Source: Prevotella sp. (lineage in GTDB: Bacteria; Bacteroidota; Bacteroidia; Bacteroidales; Bacteroidaceae). Taken from it: a DNA stretch of 42,468 nt. Under the pieces are notes generated by a model. The model saw only the letters and a list, made by a program, of their open reading frames with translations, searched no databases and was not told the DNA's origin. The translations under genes were made by a program, and so were the position numbers. The stretch lies in contig JAFPVW010000115.1 of assembly GCA_017395215.1 (NCBI GenBank), positions 1-42,468 of the forward strand, given 5' to 3'. This document shows positions 11,897 through 42,305 of this stretch, one piece after another. Position 1 is the stretch's first letter; the number at the start of each line of letters is the position of its first letter.

Positions 11897-12361
11897 ATGA
11901 CTATGAATATTGGAGACAAAGCGCCCGAAATACTGGGCAAAGACGAGCAGGGACGGGATATCCGTCTGAGTGATTACAAGGGACGCAAATTAGTACTTTA
12001 CTTTTATCCGAAGGACAATACCAGCGGTTGCACGGCCGAGGCTTGCAGTCTGCGCGACCATTACGGAGAACTGCAGGGTAGGGGATACGAGGTGGTTGGC
12101 GTGAGCAAGGACTCGGCTGCCTCGCACGTAAAGTTCAAGGAAAAGCACGAACTGCCCTTCCCGCTGATTGCCGATGTTGACAAGACGCTGATGGAGGCGA
12201 TGGGCGCCTGGGGCGAGAAGGTGATGTACGGCAAGAAGACGATGGGCACCATCCGCACCACATTCATCATTAACGAAGAGGGCATCATCGAGCAGATTTT
12301 CGCCGGCAAACAAGTGAAGACCAAAGAACACGCCGAACAGATTCTGAAGAATGGAGAGTAA
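11897..12361 (+). CDS. bcp: Thioredoxin-dependent peroxiredoxin, BCP/PrxQ type
   Basis: A 154-aa peroxiredoxin that reduces hydroperoxides. The peroxidatic Cys is C45 in NTSGCTAEAC and the resolving Cys is C50, five residues on, the spacing of the PrxQ subgroup. YFYPKDNTSGCT is the family signature. ATG 11897 is placed 17 bp after the -7 box; ATG 11903 is an in-frame alternative. It is the first gene of an operon whose next gene starts 11 bases before its stop. Its link to a helicase and repair operon suggests oxidative-damage defence, but that is inference from neighbours only. Confidence 0.94.
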   Translation: MTMNIGDKAPEILGKDEQGRDIRLSDYKGRKLVLYFYPKDNTSGCTAEACSLRDHYGELQGRGYEVVGVSKDSAASHVKFKEKHELPFPLIADVDKTLMEAMGAWGEKVMYGKKTMGTIRTTFIINEEGIIEQIFAGKQVKTKEHAEQILKNGE

Positions 12362-15152
12362 CTTCCTGAGCCAATTCCATAAGACCGCGTTCCGGACGAC
12401 CGATACGCCGAAGGGACGGGGTAAGACAACTGTGCTGTTCAGGCTGACGTTCGAGCGCGGAGCTGCTGTGAGCATCGTCGATGAGAGCGGCAACCCCGTC
12501 GCTCCCGACTACAAACAGTATCAGGGCGAGACGTTCAACGTGCTGCGCATCATCGACAACATCCGGCAGGAGCAGGCCATGCGCATCAGCTGGGACACCG
12601 ACGAGGACAACGGCATTCGTCTGCACGACTATCCCTACCTGCTGTTCGCCCTGCTGCGCTGCGACAACCTCGTAGACGGCAAGCTGAAACCCCTGAAGGT
12701 CAGCGATACGCCCGCCACCGTGCTGCTGCAAATCACTACCGAAAACGGTCAGTGTACGCCTTCGCTGTTAGCCCGCTGCGAGGGACAGTCGCCTCAGCCG
12801 TTCGAGCTGCTGAGCGACGTCTTTGCACTGGTTGGCGACACCATCAGCCCCATCGCCTCGCTTGGCGAGAACTACCTGCGCATCGGCTTCTTCAACGAAA
12901 AGTTCCCACGCACGCTATTAGAGCAATACCTCTCAGTGTTCTACTCCTACATCGACAACGTCGACCTCGACTTCGAGGACTACCAGCTGGTGCGCTCAGA
13001 TCAGAACATTGAGACCGTACCCACCATTATCATTGAGAAGGTAGACGGCGACATGGCCCTCTACCTGCGGCTGACATACACGCTGCCAGGTACCGACACC
13101 GAATTTGCCGAACGCTTTGACCTGACCTGCTTAGCCACGCTGACGATGGAGCACCAGGTGCTGCTGCGCCGCATCGTTCACACCGACGAGGCCCAGGACG
13201 AAGCCGAGCTGCGCAAGACCATTCTCAGCTACGCTCCAACGAAGACGGCCGCCAAAGACGTTTGGGAAGACGGCGGCGAGTTCATCATCCCGCAGGACGT
13301 AGCCGGTCCCTTCCTGCTACAGGCCCTACCGCAGTTAGTGCGCCACTACCAGCTGCTCGGTGCCGAGCGACTGAAAGAGTACAAGGTGAAGCCCATCGTG
13401 CCGAAGATGAACCTCAAGCTCTCATCAGGCATCGACTTCCTCGAAGGCTCGGCCACCATCAACATCGAGGGTGAGGAAATGTCGCTCCGCTCGTTCCTGC
13501 AGCAGTATAACAAGCAGAAATACGTCACGCTGAGCGACGGCCAGCGCGGACTCGTCGACGAGCACTACGTGAAGCGCTTGGAGCGCATCTTCCGCAAGGT
13601 GGAGAAGGGCGACAAGGTCAAGGTGTCGTTCTTCGACCTGCCCGAGATTGAAAGCCTGCTGGCCGAGAAGCTCGAAGGCCAGACCTTCAAGCACTACCGC
13701 GAGTTCTACGAGGGCTTCAACCAGCTGGCTTCGAAACGGCTCTCTACGGCGGGCGTGAAAGCGAAGCTGCGCAACTACCAGAAGGAGGGTGTGAAGTGGA
13801 TTAACTACCTCTACGACAACAACTTCGGCGGCTGTTTAGCCGACGATATGGGACTTGGTAAGACGCTGCAGACCATCACGATGCTGACGAAGGTGTATAA
13901 GAGACCCACCCCCAACCCCTCCCTTTCTTCTTCCCTCATCATCATGCCCCGCTCGCTGCTCTTCAACTGGCAGGACGAGCTGCAGAAGTTTGCGCCCCAG
14001 CTGGCCTACTACACCTACTACGGCCAGCAGCGTGACTTGCAGGAAGCCATGAAGCAGCAGCTCATACTGACCACCTACGCCCTGGTGCGCAACGACATAG
14101 AGCAGTTCCGCGAGCAGGAGTTCCACTACATCATCCTCGACGAGTCGCAGAACATCAAGAACCTCGCCTCGCAGACCACCCAGGCCGTGCTGCTGCTCAA
14201 CGGCCGCCACCGCCTGGCGCTGAGCGGCACGCCGATAGAGAACAACCTGACCGAGCTTTACTCGCTCTACCGCTTCCTTAATCCCGCGATGCTGGGCTCA
14301 CTCGACGACTTCAACCGCCAGTATGCAGGCCCCATACAGCACGGCGCCGACAAGGAAGCCACCGAGGCCCTGCGCCGCAAGATATTCCCCTTCATGCTGC
14401 GCCGCCTGAAGAAGGACGTGCTCAAGGAGCTGCCCGACCGTACGGAGCAGACGCTCTACGTCGAGATGGAACCCAGCCACGCCAAGTTCTACGAGGAGCG
14501 CCGCCAGTACTACCAGATGGCCATCCAGCAGAGCATCAAGGCGCAGGGACTGGAGAAGTCGCAGATGATGATGTTCCAGGCCCTCAGCGAGTTGCGCCGC
14601 ATTGCCTCCGTACCCGAGAGCCTCAGCGACGGTGCCATTGCCTCGCCGAAGATTCCGCTGCTCTGCGAACAGGTGGAGGAGCTGGTGGCCAGTGGCCATA
14701 AGGTGGTCATCTTCTTCAACTTCATTGCCGGCATCGAGCTTGTCGGCGAACGGCTGACGGAGCTTGGCATCGACTACACCACCATGACCGGCTCTACCCG
14801 CGACCGCCGTGCCGTCATTGAGCGCTTCCAGAACGACGCAGGCTGCCGCGCCCTGCTGATGACGCTGAAAACGGGTGGGGTAGGGCTGAACCTCACCGTG
14901 GCCGACACCGTCTACATCTTCGAGCCGTGGTGGAACAAGGCCGCCGAAGAGCAGGCCATCAACCGTCTGCACCGCATCGGCCAGAAGGCCAAGGTGCTCA
15001 GCTTTGCTCTCATCACCCGCGACACCATCGAGGAGAAGATCCGCCTGCTGCAACAGCAGAAGCAGGACCTGGCCGACAGCCTCATCACCGGCGACGCTGC
15101 CATCACCAAGCGGCTCACTGAGGAAGACATCAAGTATATCTTTGGAAAATAA
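12351..15152 (+). CDS. SNF2-family DNA translocase/helicase
   Basis: A 933-aa protein with a ~460-residue N-terminal region without recognised motifs and a C-terminal SNF2 two-lobe ATPase. Motif I is DDMGLGKTLQT (about 497-507), motif II is DESQN (about 596), motif III is LSGTPIENN, and lobe 2 has GGVGLNLTVADTV and NRLHRIGQ (about 845-880). It is likely to translocate on double-stranded DNA. The start overlaps bcp by 11 bases. Between motifs I and Ia a Pro/Ser-rich loop is encoded by a C-rich tract at 13904-13935 that looks unlike its surroundings. A second SNF2 gene lies at 36962. Confidence 0.92.
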   Translation: MESNFLSQFHKTAFRTTDTPKGRGKTTVLFRLTFERGAAVSIVDESGNPVAPDYKQYQGETFNVLRIIDNIRQEQAMRISWDTDEDNGIRLHDYPYLLFALLRCDNLVDGKLKPLKVSDTPATVLLQITTENGQCTPSLLARCEGQSPQPFELLSDVFALVGDTISPIASLGENYLRIGFFNEKFPRTLLEQYLSVFYSYIDNVDLDFEDYQLVRSDQNIETVPTIIIEKVDGDMALYLRLTYTLPGTDTEFAERFDLTCLATLTMEHQVLLRRIVHTDEAQDEAELRKTILSYAPTKTAAKDVWEDGGEFIIPQDVAGPFLLQALPQLVRHYQLLGAERLKEYKVKPIVPKMNLKLSSGIDFLEGSATINIEGEEMSLRSFLQQYNKQKYVTLSDGQRGLVDEHYVKRLERIFRKVEKGDKVKVSFFDLPEIESLLAEKLEGQTFKHYREFYEGFNQLASKRLSTAGVKAKLRNYQKEGVKWINYLYDNNFGGCLADDMGLGKTLQTITMLTKVYKRPTPNPSLSSSLIIMPRSLLFNWQDELQKFAPQLAYYTYYGQQRDLQEAMKQQLILTTYALVRNDIEQFREQEFHYIILDESQNIKNLASQTTQAVLLLNGRHRLALSGTPIENNLTELYSLYRFLNPAMLGSLDDFNRQYAGPIQHGADKEATEALRRKIFPFMLRRLKKDVLKELPDRTEQTLYVEMEPSHAKFYEERRQYYQMAIQQSIKAQGLEKSQMMMFQALSELRRIASVPESLSDGAIASPKIPLLCEQVEELVASGHKVVIFFNFIAGIELVGERLTELGIDYTTMTGSTRDRRAVIERFQNDAGCRALLMTLKTGGVGLNLTVADTVYIFEPWWNKAAEEQAINRLHRIGQKAKVLSFALITRDTIEEKIRLLQQQKQDLADSLITGDAAITKRLTEEDIKYIFGK

Positions 15153-34230: not shown

Positions 34231-36852
34231 TTACTTACCGCTGACTATCTTCTTGATGTCGTTCAGCTTGTTCAGCGCTTCAAGGGGCGTCAGGTTGTTC
34301 ACGTCGAGGCCGAGGATTTCGTCGCGCACCTGACAGAGCACGGGATCGTCCAACTGGAAGAACGAGAGCTGCATGCCCTCACGACTGTTAGCAATCTCGG
34401 CAGTTGGCTTGCCGACGGTGCCCACTTGGGCGTTGTCGTTCTCCAACTGCTTCAGGATGACGTTGGCGCGCTTGACGATGCTCCGGGGCATTCCCGCAAT
34501 CTCGGCCACATGGATACCAAAGCTGTGCTCCGAGCCGCCCTTCTCGAGCTTGCGCAGGAAGATGACCTTGCCGTCGACCTCCTTCACCGAGACGTTGTAG
34601 TTCTTGATGCGCGAGAAATTCTTCTCCATCTCGTTCAGCTCGTGGTAGTGGGTGGCGAAGAGCGTGCGCGGCCGGCCTGCCTTGGTGTTCTCGTGCAGGT
34701 ATTCAACGATGGCCCAGGCTATTGAGATGCCGTCGTAGGTCGACGTGCCGCGGCCCAGCTCGTCGAAGAGCACCAGCGAGCGGCTGCTGACGTTGTTCAG
34801 GATGTTCGAGGCCTCAGTCATCTCGACCATGAACGTCGATTCGCCGAGCGAGATATTGTCCGACGCGCCCACACGGGTGAAGATTTTGTCCACCAAGCCG
34901 ATTTTCGCAGCCTCTGCGGGCACGAAGCAGCCCACCTGGGCCAACAGCACAATGAGGGCCGTCTGGCGCAGCAGCGCCGACTTACCGGCCATGTTAGGAC
35001 CAGTGATGATGATAATCTGCTGGCGCTCGTTGTCTAAGAGGATGTCGTTGGGAATATACGGCTCGCCTATGGGCAGCTCCTGTTCAATGACTGGGTGGCG
35101 GCCCTGGCGGATGTCGAGCACCGTGCCGCTGTCGATGACAGGGCGGATGTAGCGGTTCTCCTCGGCGGTCTTGGCAAACGAGAGCAGACAGTCGAGGTGG
35201 GCCAGCAGGTTGGCATTGATTTGTATCTGCGGAATAAACTCCTGCATGGCCAGCACCAGCTCGTTGAACAGCTTGGTTTCGAGCGACAGAATCTTGTCCT
35301 CAGCACCGAGAATCTTCTCCTCGTACTCCTTCAGCTCCTGCGTGATGTAGCGCTCGGCCTGCGCCAGCGTCTGCTTGCGCACCCATTCCTGCGGCACCAG
35401 GTCCTTATACGTATTACGTACCTCGAGGTAGTAGCCGAAGACGTTGTTGTAGCCTATCTTCAGGCTCTGTATGCCCGTCAGCTCGGCCTCGCGCTGCTGA
35501 ATCTGCAGCAGGTAGTCCTTGCCGCTATAGGCAATGTGGCGCAGTTCGTCGAGCTCCTGGTTTACGCCGTCGCGGATGACGCCGCCCTTCTGAACCAGCT
35601 GTGGCGGGTCGGGCTGTATCTCACGCTCAATACGGTCGCGGAGCGATTCGCAGAGGTTCAGCCGCTCGCCGACGCGCTTCAGGGCGTCGTTCTGGGCGTA
35701 GAGGCACGCCGTCTTGATGGGGTGGATGGCCTGCAGGGCTGTCTTGAGTTGGACAACCTCGCGCGGAGAAACGCGCCCCACGGCCACCTTCGAGATGATA
35801 CGCTCCAAGTCGCCGACGCGGTGCAGCTGCTCGTCGATGCACTGGCGGAACTCCGGCTCGCGGTAGTAATACTCCACAATGTCTAAGCGCTCGTTGATGG
35901 GCCGCTCGTCCTTCAGCGGGAACACGAGCCAGCGGCGCAGCAGTCGGCCACCCATCGGCGAGACCGTCTTGTCGACCACGTCGAGCAGCGACTTGCCGTC
36001 TTCCTGCATGGGCTGAATCAGCTCTAAGGAGCGGATGGTGAACTTGTCAAGCCGGACGTACTTCTCCTCCTCGATGCGCTGTAGCGAGGTGATATGGGCT
36101 ATCTGGGTGTGCTGGGTCAACTCCAGATACTGGAGAATTGCTCCTGCGGCAATCATACCGTTTTTCAAGTGGTCAACACCGAAGCCCTTCATCGACTTCA
36201 CGTGGAAGTGCTTCAGCAGCTTCTGCATGGCACTCTGCTCCGTGAACACCCAGTCGTCGAGTTCAAACGTGAAGAGCTTCGTGCCGAATTGCTGCTCAAA
36301 GTCCTTCTTGCGCTGGCGGTCCACCAGCACCTCCTTCGGCTGCAGGTTGCCGAGCAGCTTCTCCACGTAGTCGTAGGTGCCCTCACCCGTCAGGAACTCG
36401 CCCGTCGAGATGTCGAGGAACGAGACGCCGCAGGCCGCCTTGCCGAAATGAACGGCACAGAGGAAATTGTTTTCCTTGTAGTTCAGCACATTGTCGCTGA
36501 GGGCCACGCCCGGCGTCACCAACTCCGTGATGCCGCGCTTGACGAGCTTCTTCGTCAGCTTCGGGTCTTCGAGCTGGTCGCAGATGGCCACGCGCTTACC
36601 GGCCCGGATTAGCTTCGGCAGGTAGGTGTCGAGGGCGTGATGGGGAAATCCCGCCATCTCGTCGCCCTTGTTGTAGCCGTTGTTGCGGTGGGTCAGGGTA
36701 ATACCCAGTATCTTCGCCGCCGTCACCGCATCCTCGCAGTACGTCTCGTAGAAGTCGCCGCAGCGGAACAGCAGCACCGCGTCGGGGTGCTTCGCCTTCA
36801 GGTCGAAGAACTGCTTCATCATCGGGGTCAGCTCCCCGTCTTTCTTTGCCAT
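34231..36852 (-). CDS. mutS: DNA mismatch repair protein MutS
   Basis: An 873-aa mismatch-recognition ATPase. The mismatch-binding Phe-x-Glu motif is in CGDFYETY (about 31-38), connector, lever and clamp domains follow, and the ATPase has Walker A GPNMAGKS, Walker B ([28 protein letters not shown]) and the conserved ATHYHEL. A C-terminal tail ([14 protein letters not shown]) is the normal MutS dimerisation end. ATG 36852 is chosen because a promoter box lies at 36882-36889. It is divergent from the second SNF2 gene. A 63-bp piece of its 5' end is repeated with 61 matches at 40256-40318. Confidence 0.97.
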
Positions 36853-36881
36853 CGTCGTTTTCTGTTTTTCTGATTTGAGCG

Positions 36882-36889
36882 CAAAGTTA
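36882..36889 (-). promoter_or_regulatory. Promoter -7 box of mutS
   Basis: TAACTTTG on the minus strand fits TAnnTTTG and lies 29 bp before the start codon. A similar box is in front of the mutS remnant at 40336-40343. Confidence 0.7.
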
Positions 36890-36932
36890 CAACTTTTTCC
36901 CGAAAAGCGGGCGGCGTTTCCCAAAAAAACCT

Positions 36933-36961: not shown

Positions 36962-39805
36962 ATGGACAACGACAGCCATATTATCCTAATTTTGCGCCCC
37001 ACGGGGAAGTGGGACATCGTGAAAGCCGAGCTGAAGCTGGTTGTCTCCACGGGGCGGTTCATGATGGTGGAACGGAGCGTCAGGAACAGCAGGGTGGAGG
37101 AGGGCAACGAACGGCTGCGGCAGTTGGCCACGGCCTGCGAGGACCTGGAGCCGCAGAGCCTCTACGTGCGCTATGCCAACCGCAAGATGTTCCGCCAGGA
37201 AAAGGACTTCTGGGCCAGCGACGACGCCACCGTCCGACGCCATGTGAAGCGCATGGCCGACCGCAGGCTGACGGAGGCCGTCAAGCTGGCCGACGAGCTG
37301 GACATACCGACACTCTATGCCGCCAAGGACACCACCGCACTCCACATTGACGAGCGGCTGCGGCTGCTCGTGGGCACAGAGGCAACACCGATCATGAACT
37401 TCAGGCGCCATGAAGGCGGCATCAGCTACAGCCTGCAGCTGCGCATAGGCGAAACGCTGTTGATGTCGCCATCGGAACACAAGATAACGGTGCTCACCCA
37501 CGAGCCGGGGCTCTTCATTGCCGACGGCGACATCATGACGCTGTGCCCGGGCTTCAGCGCCAAGCTGCTGCTGCCCTTCACGACAAAGGCCACCGTCGAG
37601 ATTCCGCCGCACATGGAGAACGAGTACTTCCGCAAGTTCATCATGCCTAACGTGACAAAGGCGGACATTCGAGCAGAAGGGTTTGAGATTGACGACATCA
37701 ACGAGCAGCCCCGGCCACAGCTGACCGTCGAGAATACCATCGACGGACGGCAGCAGCTGGCACTGTCGTTCCGCTACGGCAACATGGTTTACACGCCCTA
37801 TAGTACTGCCAGCGGCAAGGTGACCCTGCATGAAGACGGCAACGGGTTCAGGTTCTCACGCCTCAGGCGCAACAAGCCCGAAGAACAGCGCTTCTTCAAC
37901 CTGCTACAGCTGGCAGAGCCGCAAACATCGCCGCACGGCGAAATACGCTTCGCCGGGCTGCACTCGCTCATCGACTGGCTGCGCCAGCACGGTGAGGCAC
38001 TTAGGGCGCAAGGGTTCGACGTCGTTCAGCCTTCCGACCGTATCTACTATATCGGAAAACTCAGCGTGGAACAGCACGAAAACTGGCACAGCGACTGGCT
38101 ACAGACGGAGGTGACCGTCGTGCTCGACAACGGGCGCATGCGCATTCCCTTCGCCGATCTCCGCGATACCATTCTGCGCGGGGAGCAAGACTATATGCTT
38201 CCTACCGGCGAACGCCTGCTCATTCCTCAGGAATGGCTGAGCCGCTACAGCAACCTGATCCTGATGGGCCGCCGCAAGGGCACAGCCTTGTTGCTGCATA
38301 GCAGCCAGCTCCCCGCCGCCACGCCCGGCACTTCTCCGACGGGTACTGCCTCCACGCCTCCATTTCCCTCGGACTGCCACGAGGCTCCTCCCGCCTCCCT
38401 CCGCGCCACACTCCGCCCCTACCAGCTGACGGGCTATGAGTGGCTTTGGCAGAACCTGACCAACCAGACGGGCTGCTGCCTCAGCGACGAGATGGGACTG
38501 GGCAAGACGCTGCAGACCATTGCCCTGCTGCTGAATTACAAGGAAACGGCCAAGCAACAGAACCGGGCGATACCCCCGCCCGGCTGCCTCTTCAGCGACG
38601 AGGAGATGCGAGGCGTCGCCCCAACAGGGAAACCGTTGGGAACACTGGAATACCGCACGTCGCTGGTCGTGGCACCGGCCTCGGTGGTCCATAACTGGCA
38701 GAACGAGCTGAATCGCTTCGCACCGTCGCTTCTGGTCTGTAACTACACCGGCGACCCCGACCGCCGCCGCGACAAGCGCAAGGCACTGATGCAGTGGGAC
38801 GTGGTGCTGACCACCTACCGCACCCTGCAGAACGACATCGGCCACCTGTCGCGCTACGGCTTCGGCATCGTCGTCTTCGACGAGAGCCAGGCCTTCAAGA
38901 CCGCCACGTCGCAGATTCACGAAGCCGTCTGCCAGCTCAACGCCCTCCACCGCATGGCCCTCAGCGGCACGCCCGTTGAGAACAACCTCGGCGAGCTGTG
39001 GAGCCTGATGAACGTACTGAACCCCTGCCTGCTGGGCGACTGGCAGACTTTCCAGCAGTCGTTCGCCCTGCCTATTGCCCACGCCCTGGAGGAAGAGCGC
39101 ACACAGCTGCTGCGCCGCCTGATAGCCCCATACTTCCTGAAGCGCACCAAGGAGGAAGTGCTCACCGATCTGCCCGAACGGCAGGACGAAATCGTGGTCT
39201 GCCCCATGACCGAGCAGCAGGAGCATGAATATGCCGAAGAACTGTCGAAGGCCCGCAACGAATGGCTCGATACGGAGACGCGCTCCACCGTCAGCATGCT
39301 GGCCGCCATCACGCGACTACGGATGATTGCCAACGGCGAGGGAAAGATTCAGACCGTCTTCGAGCAACTGGAGCAGCTGCGCGGCACGCGCCACAAGGTG
39401 CTCATCTTCAGTGAGTACGTCACACTGCTTGATAACGTTGCCGGCAAGATGAAAGAGCGCGGCTGGCAGTATGAGATGCTGACGGGAAAGACGCAACGGC
39501 GCGAGCAGGTGATAGCCCGCTTCCAGCAGACTGCCGACTGCCAGTTCTTCCTCATCTCGCTGAAGGCCGGCGGCGTAGGGCTGAACCTGACGGCTGCCGA
39601 CTACGTGCTGCTGCTCGACCCGTGGTGGAACCTGGCCGCCGAGGAGCAGGCCATAGCCCGCGCCCACCGCATAGGCCAGCACCACCCGGTCTTCGTCTAC
39701 CGCTATGTCTCAGAAAAAACGCTCGAGGAGCAGATTCTCACCCTGCAGCAGCGCAAGCAGACACTCATTGACAGCGTTATGCCCTTCATCTGCCGCGAGG
39801 AGTAA
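36962..39805 (+). CDS. SNF2-family DNA translocase/helicase (second paralogue)
   Basis: A 947-aa protein with a ~460-residue N-terminal region and a C-terminal SNF2 ATPase: motif I SDEMGLGKTLQT (about 506-517), motif II DESQ (about 639), motif III LSGTPVENN, lobe 2 GGVGLNLTAADYVLLLDPWWN (about 865-885) and RAHRIGQ (about 898-904). The N-terminal part is different from that of the first paralogue at 12351. A Pro/Thr-rich tract (about 452-475) divides the two parts. Two such enzymes within 25 kb, one next to mutS, are unusual. Role unknown; chromatin-like remodelling is unlikely in bacteria, so DNA repair or protein displacement is the natural guess. Confidence 0.92.
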   Translation: MDNDSHIILILRPTGKWDIVKAELKLVVSTGRFMMVERSVRNSRVEEGNERLRQLATACEDLEPQSLYVRYANRKMFRQEKDFWASDDATVRRHVKRMADRRLTEAVKLADELDIPTLYAAKDTTALHIDERLRLLVGTEATPIMNFRRHEGGISYSLQLRIGETLLMSPSEHKITVLTHEPGLFIADGDIMTLCPGFSAKLLLPFTTKATVEIPPHMENEYFRKFIMPNVTKADIRAEGFEIDDINEQPRPQLTVENTIDGRQQLALSFRYGNMVYTPYSTASGKVTLHEDGNGFRFSRLRRNKPEEQRFFNLLQLAEPQTSPHGEIRFAGLHSLIDWLRQHGEALRAQGFDVVQPSDRIYYIGKLSVEQHENWHSDWLQTEVTVVLDNGRMRIPFADLRDTILRGEQDYMLPTGERLLIPQEWLSRYSNLILMGRRKGTALLLHSSQLPAATPGTSPTGTASTPPFPSDCHEAPPASLRATLRPYQLTGYEWLWQNLTNQTGCCLSDEMGLGKTLQTIALLLNYKETAKQQNRAIPPPGCLFSDEEMRGVAPTGKPLGTLEYRTSLVVAPASVVHNWQNELNRFAPSLLVCNYTGDPDRRRDKRKALMQWDVVLTTYRTLQNDIGHLSRYGFGIVVFDESQAFKTATSQIHEAVCQLNALHRMALSGTPVENNLGELWSLMNVLNPCLLGDWQTFQQSFALPIAHALEEERTQLLRRLIAPYFLKRTKEEVLTDLPERQDEIVVCPMTEQQEHEYAEELSKARNEWLDTETRSTVSMLAAITRLRMIANGEGKIQTVFEQLEQLRGTRHKVLIFSEYVTLLDNVAGKMKERGWQYEMLTGKTQRREQVIARFQQTADCQFFLISLKAGGVGLNLTAADYVLLLDPWWNLAAEEQAIARAHRIGQHHPVFVYRYVSEKTLEEQILTLQQRKQTLIDSVMPFICREE

Positions 39806-40218: not shown

Positions 40219-40317
40219 TTATTCTGTTGTCAACGAAGGGGAAACCCACCATCTCTTCGCCTTCAGATCGAAGAACTGCTTCATCATCGGGGTCAGCTCC
40301 CCGTCATTCTTTGCCAT
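40219..40317 (-). pseudogene. Remnant of the mutS 5' end in front of the 130-aa gene
   Basis: Starting at ATG 40317 the minus strand encodes [20 protein letters not shown], the first 20 residues of MutS with one change, then runs out of frame to a stop at 40219. The bases 40256-40318 match the mutS start region 36791-36853 at 61 of 63 positions. The next part, 40238-40261, matches 36642-36666 (the codons for MutS GDEMAGFP, residues 63-70) with a one-base gap and two differences. So it is a copy of the mutS start with about 125 bp deleted between short similar sequences. Confidence 0.85.
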
Positions 40318-40335
40318 CTCTTTTCTATTTTGCCG

Positions 40336-40383: not shown

Positions 40384-40414
40384 TTGCAAAACATTGGCAT
40401 TATTTGTATTTTTG
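40384..40414 (+). promoter_or_regulatory. Promoter of the 165-aa protein gene and probable RT unit
   Basis: TTG (40384-40386) and TATTTTTG (40407-40414), 20 bp apart. ATG 40437 is 22 bp after the -7 box. No other strong box is seen before the reverse transcriptase, so this may be the promoter of the whole 40437-42305 unit. Confidence 0.7.
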
Positions 40415-40436
40415 CACCAACAAAAACGTAATAGCT

Positions 40437-40934
40437 ATGAGTTTGTTGAAATCTATTCTAAACACGGTGTTCAAGTCTGCCGTTGAGAGCTTTACCCAGC
40501 AAGAGGAGCGGCCTGTCAGGTCGGCTAACGTCACTCCTAAGTACAAACCCGAAGGCGAGGATATCATAGATTTCCCTGAGTATTTTGCTGAGATTCTCAG
40601 CTCGGAGTTCCCGCAGTACAGCACGAAGCGCGATGTGCCCGTGACCGACCTTGCTGGTTTTGCCACCGACGAGTTCAAACTCTACGAGACACGCCCGCTA
40701 CAGTCGTACAAGGCCGAATGGGGCCAGCCTTACACCTTTGTCCTTTACAAAGGCGGCACACCCGTGGGCGTCGTGATGCTTGGCTCGGGCAACAGCCACA
40801 GCAAGAAGGTGAAGTTCCTGATTTCCAGGATGTATGCCAAGAAGATGGGGCTGCCGTACATCAACTTCTACACGCAGCTCCCGAACGAAAGGGCTTACGT
40901 CATCAACCGCATCAAGGAATTTATGAACGCCTGA
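40437..40934 (+). CDS. Unknown 165-aa protein, possibly nuclease-fold related
   Basis: A soluble 165-aa protein. The N-terminal ~50 residues are amphipathic and low in complexity; the C-terminal ~100 residues (EYFAEILSSEFPQYS, then WGQPYTFVLYKGGTPVGVVMLGS, KVKFLISRMYAKKMGLPYINFYTQLPNE) have the strand-strand-helix order of restriction-endonuclease-like folds of the DUF2726 kind, but I see no convincing D-x(n)-ExK triad. Similar short proteins seem to occur in gut Bacteroidales, so the link to the RT may be only positional. It ends seven bases before the structured RNA, in the same direction as the RT. Confidence 0.72.
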   Translation: MSLLKSILNTVFKSAVESFTQQEERPVRSANVTPKYKPEGEDIIDFPEYFAEILSSEFPQYSTKRDVPVTDLAGFATDEFKLYETRPLQSYKAEWGQPYTFVLYKGGTPVGVVMLGSGNSHSKKVKFLISRMYAKKMGLPYINFYTQLPNERAYVINRIKEFMNA

Positions 40935-40941
40935 CGCTTCA

Positions 40942-41077
40942 GGGAAAAGGGGATGCAACTATTTGCGCCTGCGAAGGACGAAGCGGTGCCAACGGCTATC
41001 AAGGTCTTGCAGGCGGCCCGGCTCCGTACCGTCCCGTGATCGCCAACTTGGCGATTCAAACCAATTCCCCTTTTCCC
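40942..41077 (+). ncRNA. Structured RNA candidate upstream of the reverse transcriptase
   Basis: A non-coding 136-nt stretch is bounded by a perfect 12-bp inverted repeat, GGGAAAAGGGGA (40942-40953) and its complement (41066-41077), which would form a closing stem like the a1/a2 repeats of retron RNAs. Inside, CGCCTGCGA (40966-40974) pairs with TTGCAGGCG (41007-41015) with one G-U pair, and ATCGCC (41039-41044) pairs with GGCGAT (41050-41055) around a short loop. No protein is supported here on either strand. It ends 37 bp before the RT start; that spacer holds a CA/CCC-rich repeat tract. Confidence 0.55.
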
Positions 41078-41114
41078 TTTTACCAACACCTGTCACCCAA
41101 CACCCATCACCCCA

Positions 41115-42305
41115 ATGCAGAGCATCATCGACCTTCTTGGCGAACAGCAGACCTGGGAAGAGTTCCTGACCTACCGCCTACTGAAAGGCCGCTTCAACTG
41201 GTACGAATTCGACGAGGCCGACACCTACGTCTCTGAGGCACAGTACCGCGACGTCGTGGGACGGCTGCAGCGCGGTGAACCGCTGTCGGTTCCTTCGCGT
41301 CACCTGGTCAACAAGATGGGCAACGGGAAAAAGCGGGTGGTCTACAGCTTCCCGCCCGACGAGATGATTGTACTGAAGGCGATGACTTTTCTGCTTTACC
41401 ATTACGACTCACAACTCGCGCCCAACTGCTACTCGTTCCGGCGCGGACAGACGGCACACGAGGCCATCAGCCATCTGGTCCGCACCATCAACAACCGGCC
41501 GATGTGGGCCTACAAACTCGACATCCACAACTATTTCAACTCCATCTCCATTCCGCTGCTGCTGCCAATACTCAGCGAGGTGCTGGCCGACGACCCGCCG
41601 CTATACGCATTTTTTGAACGGCTGCTCACCGACGGCCGGGCACGCGTCGGCGACGAAATAATCAGCGAGGAGCGCGGCGTCATGGCGGGCACGCCCACGT
41701 CGCCGTTCCTCGCCAACATCTACCTGCGCGAGGTGGACCACCACTTTGCAGAGACCGGTGTGCTCTACGCCCGCTATTCTGACGACATCATCCTCTTTGC
41801 GCCCAACCGAGAGACGCTCGACCGGCACATCGGCGATCTAAACGCCTTTCTCGAAAAATACCGCCTCGAAGTGAACCCCGACAAGGTGAGAATCTACCAA
41901 CCCGACGAGGCGTTCGACTTCTTAGGCTTCAAGTGTAAGGGGCGCAACATCGACATAGCCGACGCAACAAGACGCAAGATGAAGGAGAAAATCAGGCGAA
42001 AGGCCCGCTCACTGCAGCGCTGGCGCAGTAAGAAGGGCATTGCTGCCGAAAAGGCCATGAAAGTGCTGATCCGTTATTTCAACAGGAAGTTCTTCGAGAG
42101 CGACGACCCCTCGGAACTGACCTGGTCAAGATGGTTCTTCCCCATCATCAACCAGACAGAGGGCCTTCGCGAGATTGACCATTACCTGCAATATAACCTG
42201 CGCTATGTGGCGACAGGCCGGCACAACAATGCCAACTACCGCACGCGCTATGACCTGCTAAAGCAGCTGGGCTATCGGAGTCTGGTTCACGAGTTCTATA
42301 GGTAA
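41115..42305 (+). CDS. Stand-alone reverse transcriptase
   Basis: A 396-aa RT with all palm motifs: catalytic Asp D136 in AYKLDIHNYFNS (motif A), YSFRRGQTAHEAI (about 106-117), GVMAGTPTSPFLANIYL (about 188-204), the YxDD box as Y221-S-D223-D224, and LGF in AFDFLGFKC. There is no maturase X domain with its usual length, no HNH endonuclease, no retron VTG motif in the expected form and no DGR-type LGNQTSQ motif. The C-terminal ~130 residues are basic (KMKEKIRRKARSLQRWRSKKG). It belongs to a non-retron, non-mobile RT lineage that I cannot name. A structured RNA lies directly upstream. Confidence 0.9.
   Translation: MQSIIDLLGEQQTWEEFLTYRLLKGRFNWYEFDEADTYVSEAQYRDVVGRLQRGEPLSVPSRHLVNKMGNGKKRVVYSFPPDEMIVLKAMTFLLYHYDSQLAPNCYSFRRGQTAHEAISHLVRTINNRPMWAYKLDIHNYFNSISIPLLLPILSEVLADDPPLYAFFERLLTDGRARVGDEIISEERGVMAGTPTSPFLANIYLREVDHHFAETGVLYARYSDDIILFAPNRETLDRHIGDLNAFLEKYRLEVNPDKVRIYQPDEAFDFLGFKCKGRNIDIADATRRKMKEKIRRKARSLQRWRSKKGIAAEKAMKVLIRYFNRKFFESDDPSELTWSRWFFPIINQTEGLREIDHYLQYNLRYVATGRHNNANYRTRYDLLKQLGYRSLVHEFYR

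Follow-up and report, generated by a model that had tools for sequence, protein, structure and literature searches.

The cassette at positions 40384-42305 on the + strand of a Prevotella sp. contig (JAFPVW010000115.1, assembly GCA_017395215.1; the entire contig of 42,468 bases, from a 3.6-Mb genome, is called the window here) most likely encodes a UG/DRT-like reverse transcriptase (RT) that depends on a non-coding RNA (ncRNA), as judged from its sequence and that of its relatives. It carries a promoter, a gene for a small protein (SP), a non-coding RNA stretch and an RT gene, and it looks like a single transcription unit under one promoter and like a bacterial RNA-plus-enzyme machine for writing DNA. 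The parts that the initial annotation of the window had listed, namely a promoter, a 165-aa gene, a 136-nucleotide (nt) non-coding stretch closed by a perfect 12-bp repeat and an RT with YSDD, are all present where it had placed them. The cassette goes beyond a chance arrangement because the RNA scores 80.8 bits against the Rfam family RT-5 (RF03026; E 1.2e-15) and because purifying selection on both proteins is strong, with dN/dS of 0.04-0.11 for the RT and 0.05-0.25 for SP in the 14 closest locus pairs, which are not fully independent as several have members in common. In all, 113 loci (94 distinct) were collected; the nearest 80 named contigs listed, from 527 relatives, are assigned to Prevotella, Prevotellaceae and other Bacteroidales, and many are named after the rumen or another ruminant gut. 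In 63 of 86 loci the motif TAnnTTTG, which we take to be the consensus of the Bacteroides-type promoter element read in the window as TATTTTTG, is found no more than 120 nt from the small gene, where shuffling predicts 4.6 loci.

By profile scores, which are the basis of the assignment, the RT is a full-length and intact UG26 enzyme. It matches the PADLOC model RT_UG26 with 531.6 bits (E 2.5e-160; residues 3-396 on profile positions 2-394 of 398), and among the best 25 of 93 matches the runners-up are the generic RT model (127 bits), UG4 (123), UG27 (116), UG17/DRT10 (105.9) and DRT9 (96), with DRT3a and DRT2 below DRT9. The YSDD motif at residue 221 is intact in all 93 homologues, and the C-terminal residues Y379, Y387 and S389 are conserved in 93, 92 and 91 of them. 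RVT_1 is the only Pfam family that passes its cutoff; the group_II_RT_mat model gives 131 bits for a cutoff of 300, the Drt2 NCBIfam model 62 bits for a cutoff of 390, and the listed Drt2-Drt5 models all stay below their cutoffs. A search of the PDB with a profile of 15 RTs is led by 'RNA-directed DNA polymerase' (8bgj), GsI-IIC RT, Cas6-RT-Cas1 and group II RTs (102-90 bits). The 'separate lineage' that had been proposed for this RT holds only in the sense of the already named UG26 group, and the RNA too belongs to an existing Rfam family.

The RT-5 match extends over 40963-41068, covers the model end to end (cutoff 45.7 bits) and is the only Rfam match above cutoff within the window. The stretch 40935-41090 folds with z = -4.35, none of 200 shuffles being as stable. 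For the covariation test a 47-pair structure was scored on an alignment of 78 loci, the window included. Paired cells make up 95.9% against 85.4% after shuffling, 29 pairs are changed on both sides against 17.1, and the covariation score is 0.331 against 0.135 for shuffled and 0.046-0.103 for slid versions. It may be noted that relatedness can lift a result above the shuffle controls and that the structure was read from the same sequences; hence the weight lies with the comparison to slid versions, with the double changes and with the divergent RNA of genome G184 described below. The RNA, for which the initial annotation had asked for a covariation analysis, does covary over these loci, the closing stem P1 and the helix P3 included, which favours that annotation's tie of RNA to RT. 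The stem which that annotation had drawn at 40966/41007 is paired as well, not as an ordinary nested stem: it is a pseudoknot (P3) in which GCCUGC at 40967-40972 meets GCAGGC at 41009-41014 within the loop of a second hairpin. Used by itself, RNAalifold, a method that cannot draw P3, finds P1, P2, P4a, P4, P6 and P5, and the structure line of the Rfam model holds P4a, P4, P6 and P5 only. Among the unpaired parts UU (columns 110-111), GU (143-144) and CAAA (166-169) vary little or not at all; the mostly conserved UUU (columns 155-157) in the P5 loop of most homologues is absent from the window RNA. The features are collected in Table 1.

Table 1. Parts of the cassette and of its RNA in the window, with the observations attached to each
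Feature	Position	Strand	Observation
Promoter	40384..40414	+	TTG at 40384-40386 and TATTTTTG at 40407-40414, Bacteroides-type; upstream TTG element read by eye only
Small protein (SP) gene, 165 aa	40437..40934	+	Putative remote RTasCOG2852 relative
Whole RNA	40942..41077	+	RT-5 core with closing stem P1, P2 and pseudoknot P3; Rfam RF03026 match, covariation over 78 loci
P1 5' arm	40942..40953	+	Pairs with 41066-41077; 6 of 11 pairs changed on both sides, 96.6% paired
P2 hairpin	40955..40966	+	40955-40958 with 40963-40966; short variable loop; helices 2 and 3 of the test
P3 5' arm, GCCUGC	40967..40972	+	Pseudoknot with 41009-41014; pairing in 99.8% of cells, double changes in 3 of 6 pairs
P4a and P4 5' arms	40976..40990	+	Pair with 41030-41034 and 41020-41027; double changes in 2 of 5 pairs and in 7 of 9
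Variable single-stranded bulge AACGGCTATCAA, candidate template	40991..41002	+	5-19 nt in 90 parsed loci
P6 hairpin, GGUC-UUGCAGGC-GGCC	41003..41018	+	Caps P4; loop holds P3 3' arm (41009-41014); 3 of 4 pairs doubly changed
P5 hairpin	41038..41056	+	Double changes in 5 of 8 pairs
Single-stranded joiner	41057..41065	+	Starts with CAAA, present in 78 of 78 rows
P1 3' arm	41066..41077	+	Covariation test
UG26 reverse transcriptase, 396 aa	41115..42305	+	PADLOC RT_UG26 profile, YSDD intact

The RNA is tied to the RT. On searching 398 genomes of the genus, the UG26 RT (E<=1e-60) was found in 36 and the RT-5 RNA in 36, and the two lists are identical; in two genomes (G047 and G423) the RNA and the RT sit on separate contigs, each at a contig end. 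The RT is present in 15 of 199 relatives, and the RNA in 14 of these 15. In the fifteenth, G184, the RNA was missed by Rfam, and helices placed by eye at the consensus positions keep 44 of 44 pairs with other sequences in P1, P3 and P4; the P3 pairing kept there with a different sequence is one further change event. In a phylum sample of 395 genomes the only hit of the system is the window's own genome. As the initial annotation had proposed for its cognate RNA, the RNA stands upstream of the RT homologues, in 91 of the 91 distinct loci with at least 150 nt upstream (90 were parsed adjoining the RT, and in the remaining one, L049, it is about 3 kb off). The distances of RT, SP and RNA over 75 loci give Mantel correlations of 0.76, 0.74 and 0.66, against maxima of 0.15-0.22 in 300 permutations. 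SP has a tblastn match upstream of the RT at 106 of 113 loci, and 5 of the 7 misses begin at a contig edge. At the G184 locus (L036/L198) no SP was found in the 18 kb searched by hidden Markov model (HMM), which would make this genome a possible two-part form made of an RT and a rewritten, still pairable RNA. Because this one genome has both without SP, RNA and RT probably form the core and SP a nearly constant companion, and this single case suggests that SP is dispensable.

SP itself is probably a remote relative of the PADLOC family RTasCOG2852, which it matches weakly (E 4.9e-6, residues 90-162 only) and which is matched at E<=0.01 by 47 of 51 members of the SP family, the window's included (best E 3.1e-8). 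A Pfam scan of the window SP gave no family at E<=0.1, nor did SP match any PDB chain up to E 10. Two motifs are conserved, RPxQxYKAEWGxPYTFVL and VVMLGxG(H)SH-KYL-R. The places of the catalytic acids were set by what we take to be the motifs of DUF559/Vsr-type nucleases; here SP has non-acidic residues, Met114 in 86 of 86 and Gly116 in 85 of 86 sequences, and as these are invariant or nearly invariant, SP is probably not an active nuclease of the DUF559/Vsr type.

The account that we favour, with a probability of about 0.5 for the whole of it, is the following. One promoter would give a transcript carrying SP, the RNA of ~136 nt and the UG26 RT. The RNA, closed by P1, would be bound by the RT as its dedicated partner and act in trans, its pseudoknotted scaffold presenting the unpaired bulge between P4 and the P6/P3 pseudoknot, with P4 as a natural 5' stop for the enzyme. 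The RT would most likely copy the bulge into a short or iterated complementary DNA (cDNA), whose synthesis probably starts from a C-terminal Tyr or Ser of the RT, as is reported for DRT9 and DRT10; this is suggested by the conservation of Y379, Y387 and S389 together with the precedent of DRT10, which according to excerpts of its report primes from C-terminal S456/Y444 (PMC12632851). SP, possibly a relative of the nuclease fold without its acidic residues, would handle or sense the product. The bulge recommends itself as the candidate template in being the longest variable unpaired segment of an otherwise conserved RNA. It has 5-19 nt between the 5' arms of P4 and P6 (most commonly 9-10, and never fewer than 5 in the 90 parsed loci), faces 0-2 nt on the opposite strand in the rows printed, and holds 0.07-0.25 bits at each of six consecutive columns near its 3' end. 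G is scarce in it, making up 83 of the 718 letters of 77 unique bulges. Of this account, the operon layout, the RNA-RT linkage, the conserved pseudoknotted structure, the intact active site and the selection on both proteins are shown by the sequences, and RNA binding, templating, priming, the part played by SP and the biological purpose are inferred. With the RNA-RT pair, the pseudoknotted structure and one candidate template fixed, the question can be put to experiment.

Several observations weigh against this account, and those of the genomic surroundings and of the bulge, taken up in the next two paragraphs, are among them. The PDB search ranks Drt2 (46 bits), Drt3a (35) and telomerase (31) behind the leading chains named above. 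Double changes in P3 are few (7 cells, perhaps three events). The fold of the G184 RNA is unremarkable (z -1.11, with 23 of 200 shuffles as stable), for a folded stretch that cut off the 5' part of the RNA. The displaced RNA of L049 comes from one contig of a metagenome-assembled genome, and the fold of SP is read from one weak HMM match. As for variability, unpaired parts other than the bulge also vary, namely column 173 and the short P2 loop (0.11 bits at column 48 and 0.09 at column 53), and the variability of the bulge could reflect no more than a lack of constraint.

A defence island was considered for these loci and rejected, as their flanks are housekeeping in character (judged from the 25 of 81 Pfam families listed) and only 1 of 120 flank proteins matches PADLOC at 1e-10, the scan having covered 120 of 380 open reading frames (ORFs; <=600 aa) around 74 loci. 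In the control, 90 ORFs match 26 PADLOC families at 1e-10, several probably being the same protein (between 2 and 27 ORFs hit, going by the 25 families listed); these ORFs are from the contig starts of ten genomes, all of them system-bearing, where assembly breaks may gather mobile DNA. The genomic context of the loci thus gives no support to a defence role. Carriage by phage, plasmid or virus was rejected as well, with no phage match at E<=1e-20 and no plasmid match at E<=1e-40; IMG/VR yielded 3 remote relatives. Neighbours are shared within two groups of loci, 51 of 2775 locus pairs having two or more in common, and in L045 the cassette lies directly upstream of the mutS start. All this would suit a chromosomally resident function other than defence, such as DNA synthesis in repair or stress, carried out by the same RNA-RT machine and so compatible with the mechanism given above. 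We consider such a purpose somewhat unlikely, since the patchy presence of the system in the genus and in the phylum sample is typical of accessory, often defensive, genes, and PADLOC files the UG models under DRT.

The template loop of DRT10 is, in excerpts of its report, poorly conserved and placed just downstream of a stable stem (PMC12632851), and therefore the hallmark of that loop, a direct repeat of the form A-B-A', was tested in the bulge. The test covered the bulge only, in its 77 unique versions, with mononucleotide shuffles and a half-swap null, and doubtful automatic parses (e.g. L065, L084 and L099, where P4 bases fall inside the bulge) were retained. Repeats of at least 3 nt occur in 20 of the 77 bulges against 21.0 in shuffles and 19.3 in half-swaps, so that no excess is seen. 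Non-overlapping repeats number 18 against 15.5 expected (p 0.26), and repeats of at least 4 nt number 5 against 4.6 in shuffles (p 0.50) and 2.6 in half-swaps (p 0.10). Repeats of 2 nt (60 of 77 bulges against 61.2) are too common by chance to give the test much power. A positional test over 130 position pairs in 73 bulges gave no clear signal (maximum z of 3.6 in identity, of 3.9 in complementarity); of the 12 top identity values, 6 share a single column, that of the first P6 base, a clustering that may come from relatedness, as we read it without proof. A mini-hairpin inside the bulge was also tried and rejected, with 4 inverted repeats of 3 nt against 3.3 expected and 23 of 2 nt against 24.8. 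Since 85-95% of DRT10 loops are reported to show the A-B-A' pattern (PMC12632851), a DRT10-like share with A of at least 3 nt would have been detected, and without an excess of direct repeats a realignment of the DRT10 style is unsupported.

A bulge that is nearly random across loci and free of A-B-A' excess is also what one would expect if the RNA were an obligate structural cofactor or activator rather than a template, the RT making untemplated or otherwise templated DNA and the bulge serving as an unconstrained linker; that conservation in the unpaired parts takes the form of short motifs (UUGCAGGC, GU and CAAA, for example) fits this too. The cofactor role is nevertheless unlikely in our estimate, as DRT10 and DRT3a, which are related groups in the PADLOC ranking, take their template from their own ncRNA in the excerpts of their reports (PMC12632851, PMC13174585), and the bulge never falls below 5 nt in the parsed loci. 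For the bulge, single-pass copying, another mode of iteration, a guide role or no role at all may each apply. It is a doubtful and more far-reaching suggestion that the system is a stably inherited RNA-RT machine with a covarying pseudoknotted RNA, whose freely variable template or guide bulge of 5-19 nt would yield a short DNA word specific to each lineage, made without realignment of the telomerase type and for a purpose other than island-borne phage defence.

The trans action assumed in the favoured account is argued from distance. In L049, SP and RNA precede the RT by ~3 kb and are separated from it by two genes (L049:2228-6001), which we take to be trkA and trkH from their appearance, and this one contig suggests that an RNA ~3 kb from its RT is possible. 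From the end of the P1 3' arm (P1') to the start of RT homology the median is 17 nt, and it is 95-179 nt in 10 of 87 measured loci. That P1' ends so close to the RT homology in an apparent single transcription unit could instead speak for a leader acting in cis on how the RT message is translated or how stable it is; against this stand the displaced RNA of L049, the wide gaps in the ten loci and a pseudoknotted structure of 47 pairs, which is elaborate for a leader, and we hold a leader to be very unlikely. Ten loci (L051, L061, L066, L068, L069, L073, L091, L104, L123 and L133) have ~80-160 extra nt between the RNA and the RT homology, several of them with TTTGACACGAGAC-type sequence.

Some further observations concern the sites at which the cassette is found. 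A mobile element with precise ends was rejected: of eight loci from relatives of genome G258, 6 have the genes of the two flanks almost next to each other (within ~30 nt), 1 has them ~480 nt apart and 1 showed no match to the second gene, and because the ~2.95-kb insert of L063 extends ~720 nt ahead of the small gene and ~350 nt past the RT, its ends are not sharp; target-site repeats were not searched for. Beside the cassette neighbourhood of L108 (L108:7908-7951) is a dispersed repeat of ~40 bp with several copies in G258 and its relatives, and the gene next to it is inverted relative to several genomes that have no cassette at this site. In the window, mutS occupies 34231-36924 on the - strand, and a 64-nt copy of its 5' end (97% identical; original 36790-36853) stands at 40255-40318, just upstream of the cassette promoter. 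Since the cassette of L045 adjoins the mutS start, a segment of ~3.4 kb, which holds a SNF2-like helicase and an ORF of 130 aa, seems to have separated the cassette from mutS in the window. Two SNF2-like helicase genes of similar size are present there, at 12351-15152 (933 aa, by Pfam) and at 36962-39805 (947 aa, by PHROG helicase profiles), the first matching the second at 74% over 162 nt.

Among known systems, the system is very probably not a retron: such a reading (an effector gene, an msr-msd RNA closed by an a1/a2-type stem and a retron RT) can point to the effector-RNA-RT order and the 12-bp closing stem, which resemble what we take to be the retron layout, and is highly improbable because VTG occurs in 0 of 93 RTs and NAxxH in 2 of 93 (motifs as defined in the initial annotation), the three listed retron NCBIfam models reach at most 62 bits for cutoffs of at least 235, and the RNA has no long msd-type hairpin, P5 being of ~8 bp. 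Of the earlier label 'retron-like or DRT-like', then, the second half stands, with UG26 as the group and UG4, UG27, UG17 and DRT9 as the next PADLOC models, and the first half falls. DRT2 shares a pseudoknotted RNA adjoining a single RT, as far as excerpts of its description go; its NCBIfam model is far from its cutoff here, and the window RNA lacks a long looped template. DRT9 and DRT3a likewise pair an RT with a structured ncRNA and are ncRNA-templated, in excerpts of the published work (for DRT3a, PMC13174585), whereas the bulge of the window family has no conserved poly-U or ACACAC tract, and the unpaired parts of the window RNA have no U run longer than 2 that could answer to the poly-U template tract of DRT9. 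A 2026 overview, in its excerpted table, covers DRT1-DRT9 (PMC13213688).

The closest parallel in layout is DRT10, which its report, in excerpts, describes as a UG17 RT with a 137-nt ncRNA, from which it templates, and a SLATT protein (PMC12632851). Both have three parts, an operon ncRNA of like size, a poorly conserved loop beside a stable stem and conserved C-terminal Ser/Tyr residues. They differ in that the window RT scores 105.9 bits with UG17 against 531.6 with UG26, in that its ncRNA lies between SP and RT and not upstream of the partner gene, in the partner, which weakly matches RTasCOG2852 and not SLATT, and in the lack of both an A-B-A' excess and a defence-island context. To the UG26 RTs as modelled in PADLOC the likeness is a full-length match (531.6 bits, the next best model giving 127), and no tested difference was found. 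The literature searched gave no characterised UG26 member or UG26 experiment; excerpts of one report place UG26 among the RTs of cold-seep viruses (PMC10504277). Searched by name, it gave no mention of the RT-5 RNA or RF03026 either, the 2022 UG/Abi and 2017 structured-RNA surveys being outside the search, and priority for the link of UG26 with RT-5 cannot be claimed. The window RNA matches the whole RT-5 model, and P1, P2 and P3, which are supported here, are additional to the Rfam structure. As the RT group, the RNA family and the SP profile are all previously catalogued, this is not a new kind of system; what is new here is a more complete structure of the RNA, the counts that link it to the RT and two tests with a negative outcome, those for A-B-A' excess and for defence islands. 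The outcome of these two tests sets the system apart from DRT10 and warns against assuming that all UG RTs are antiviral.

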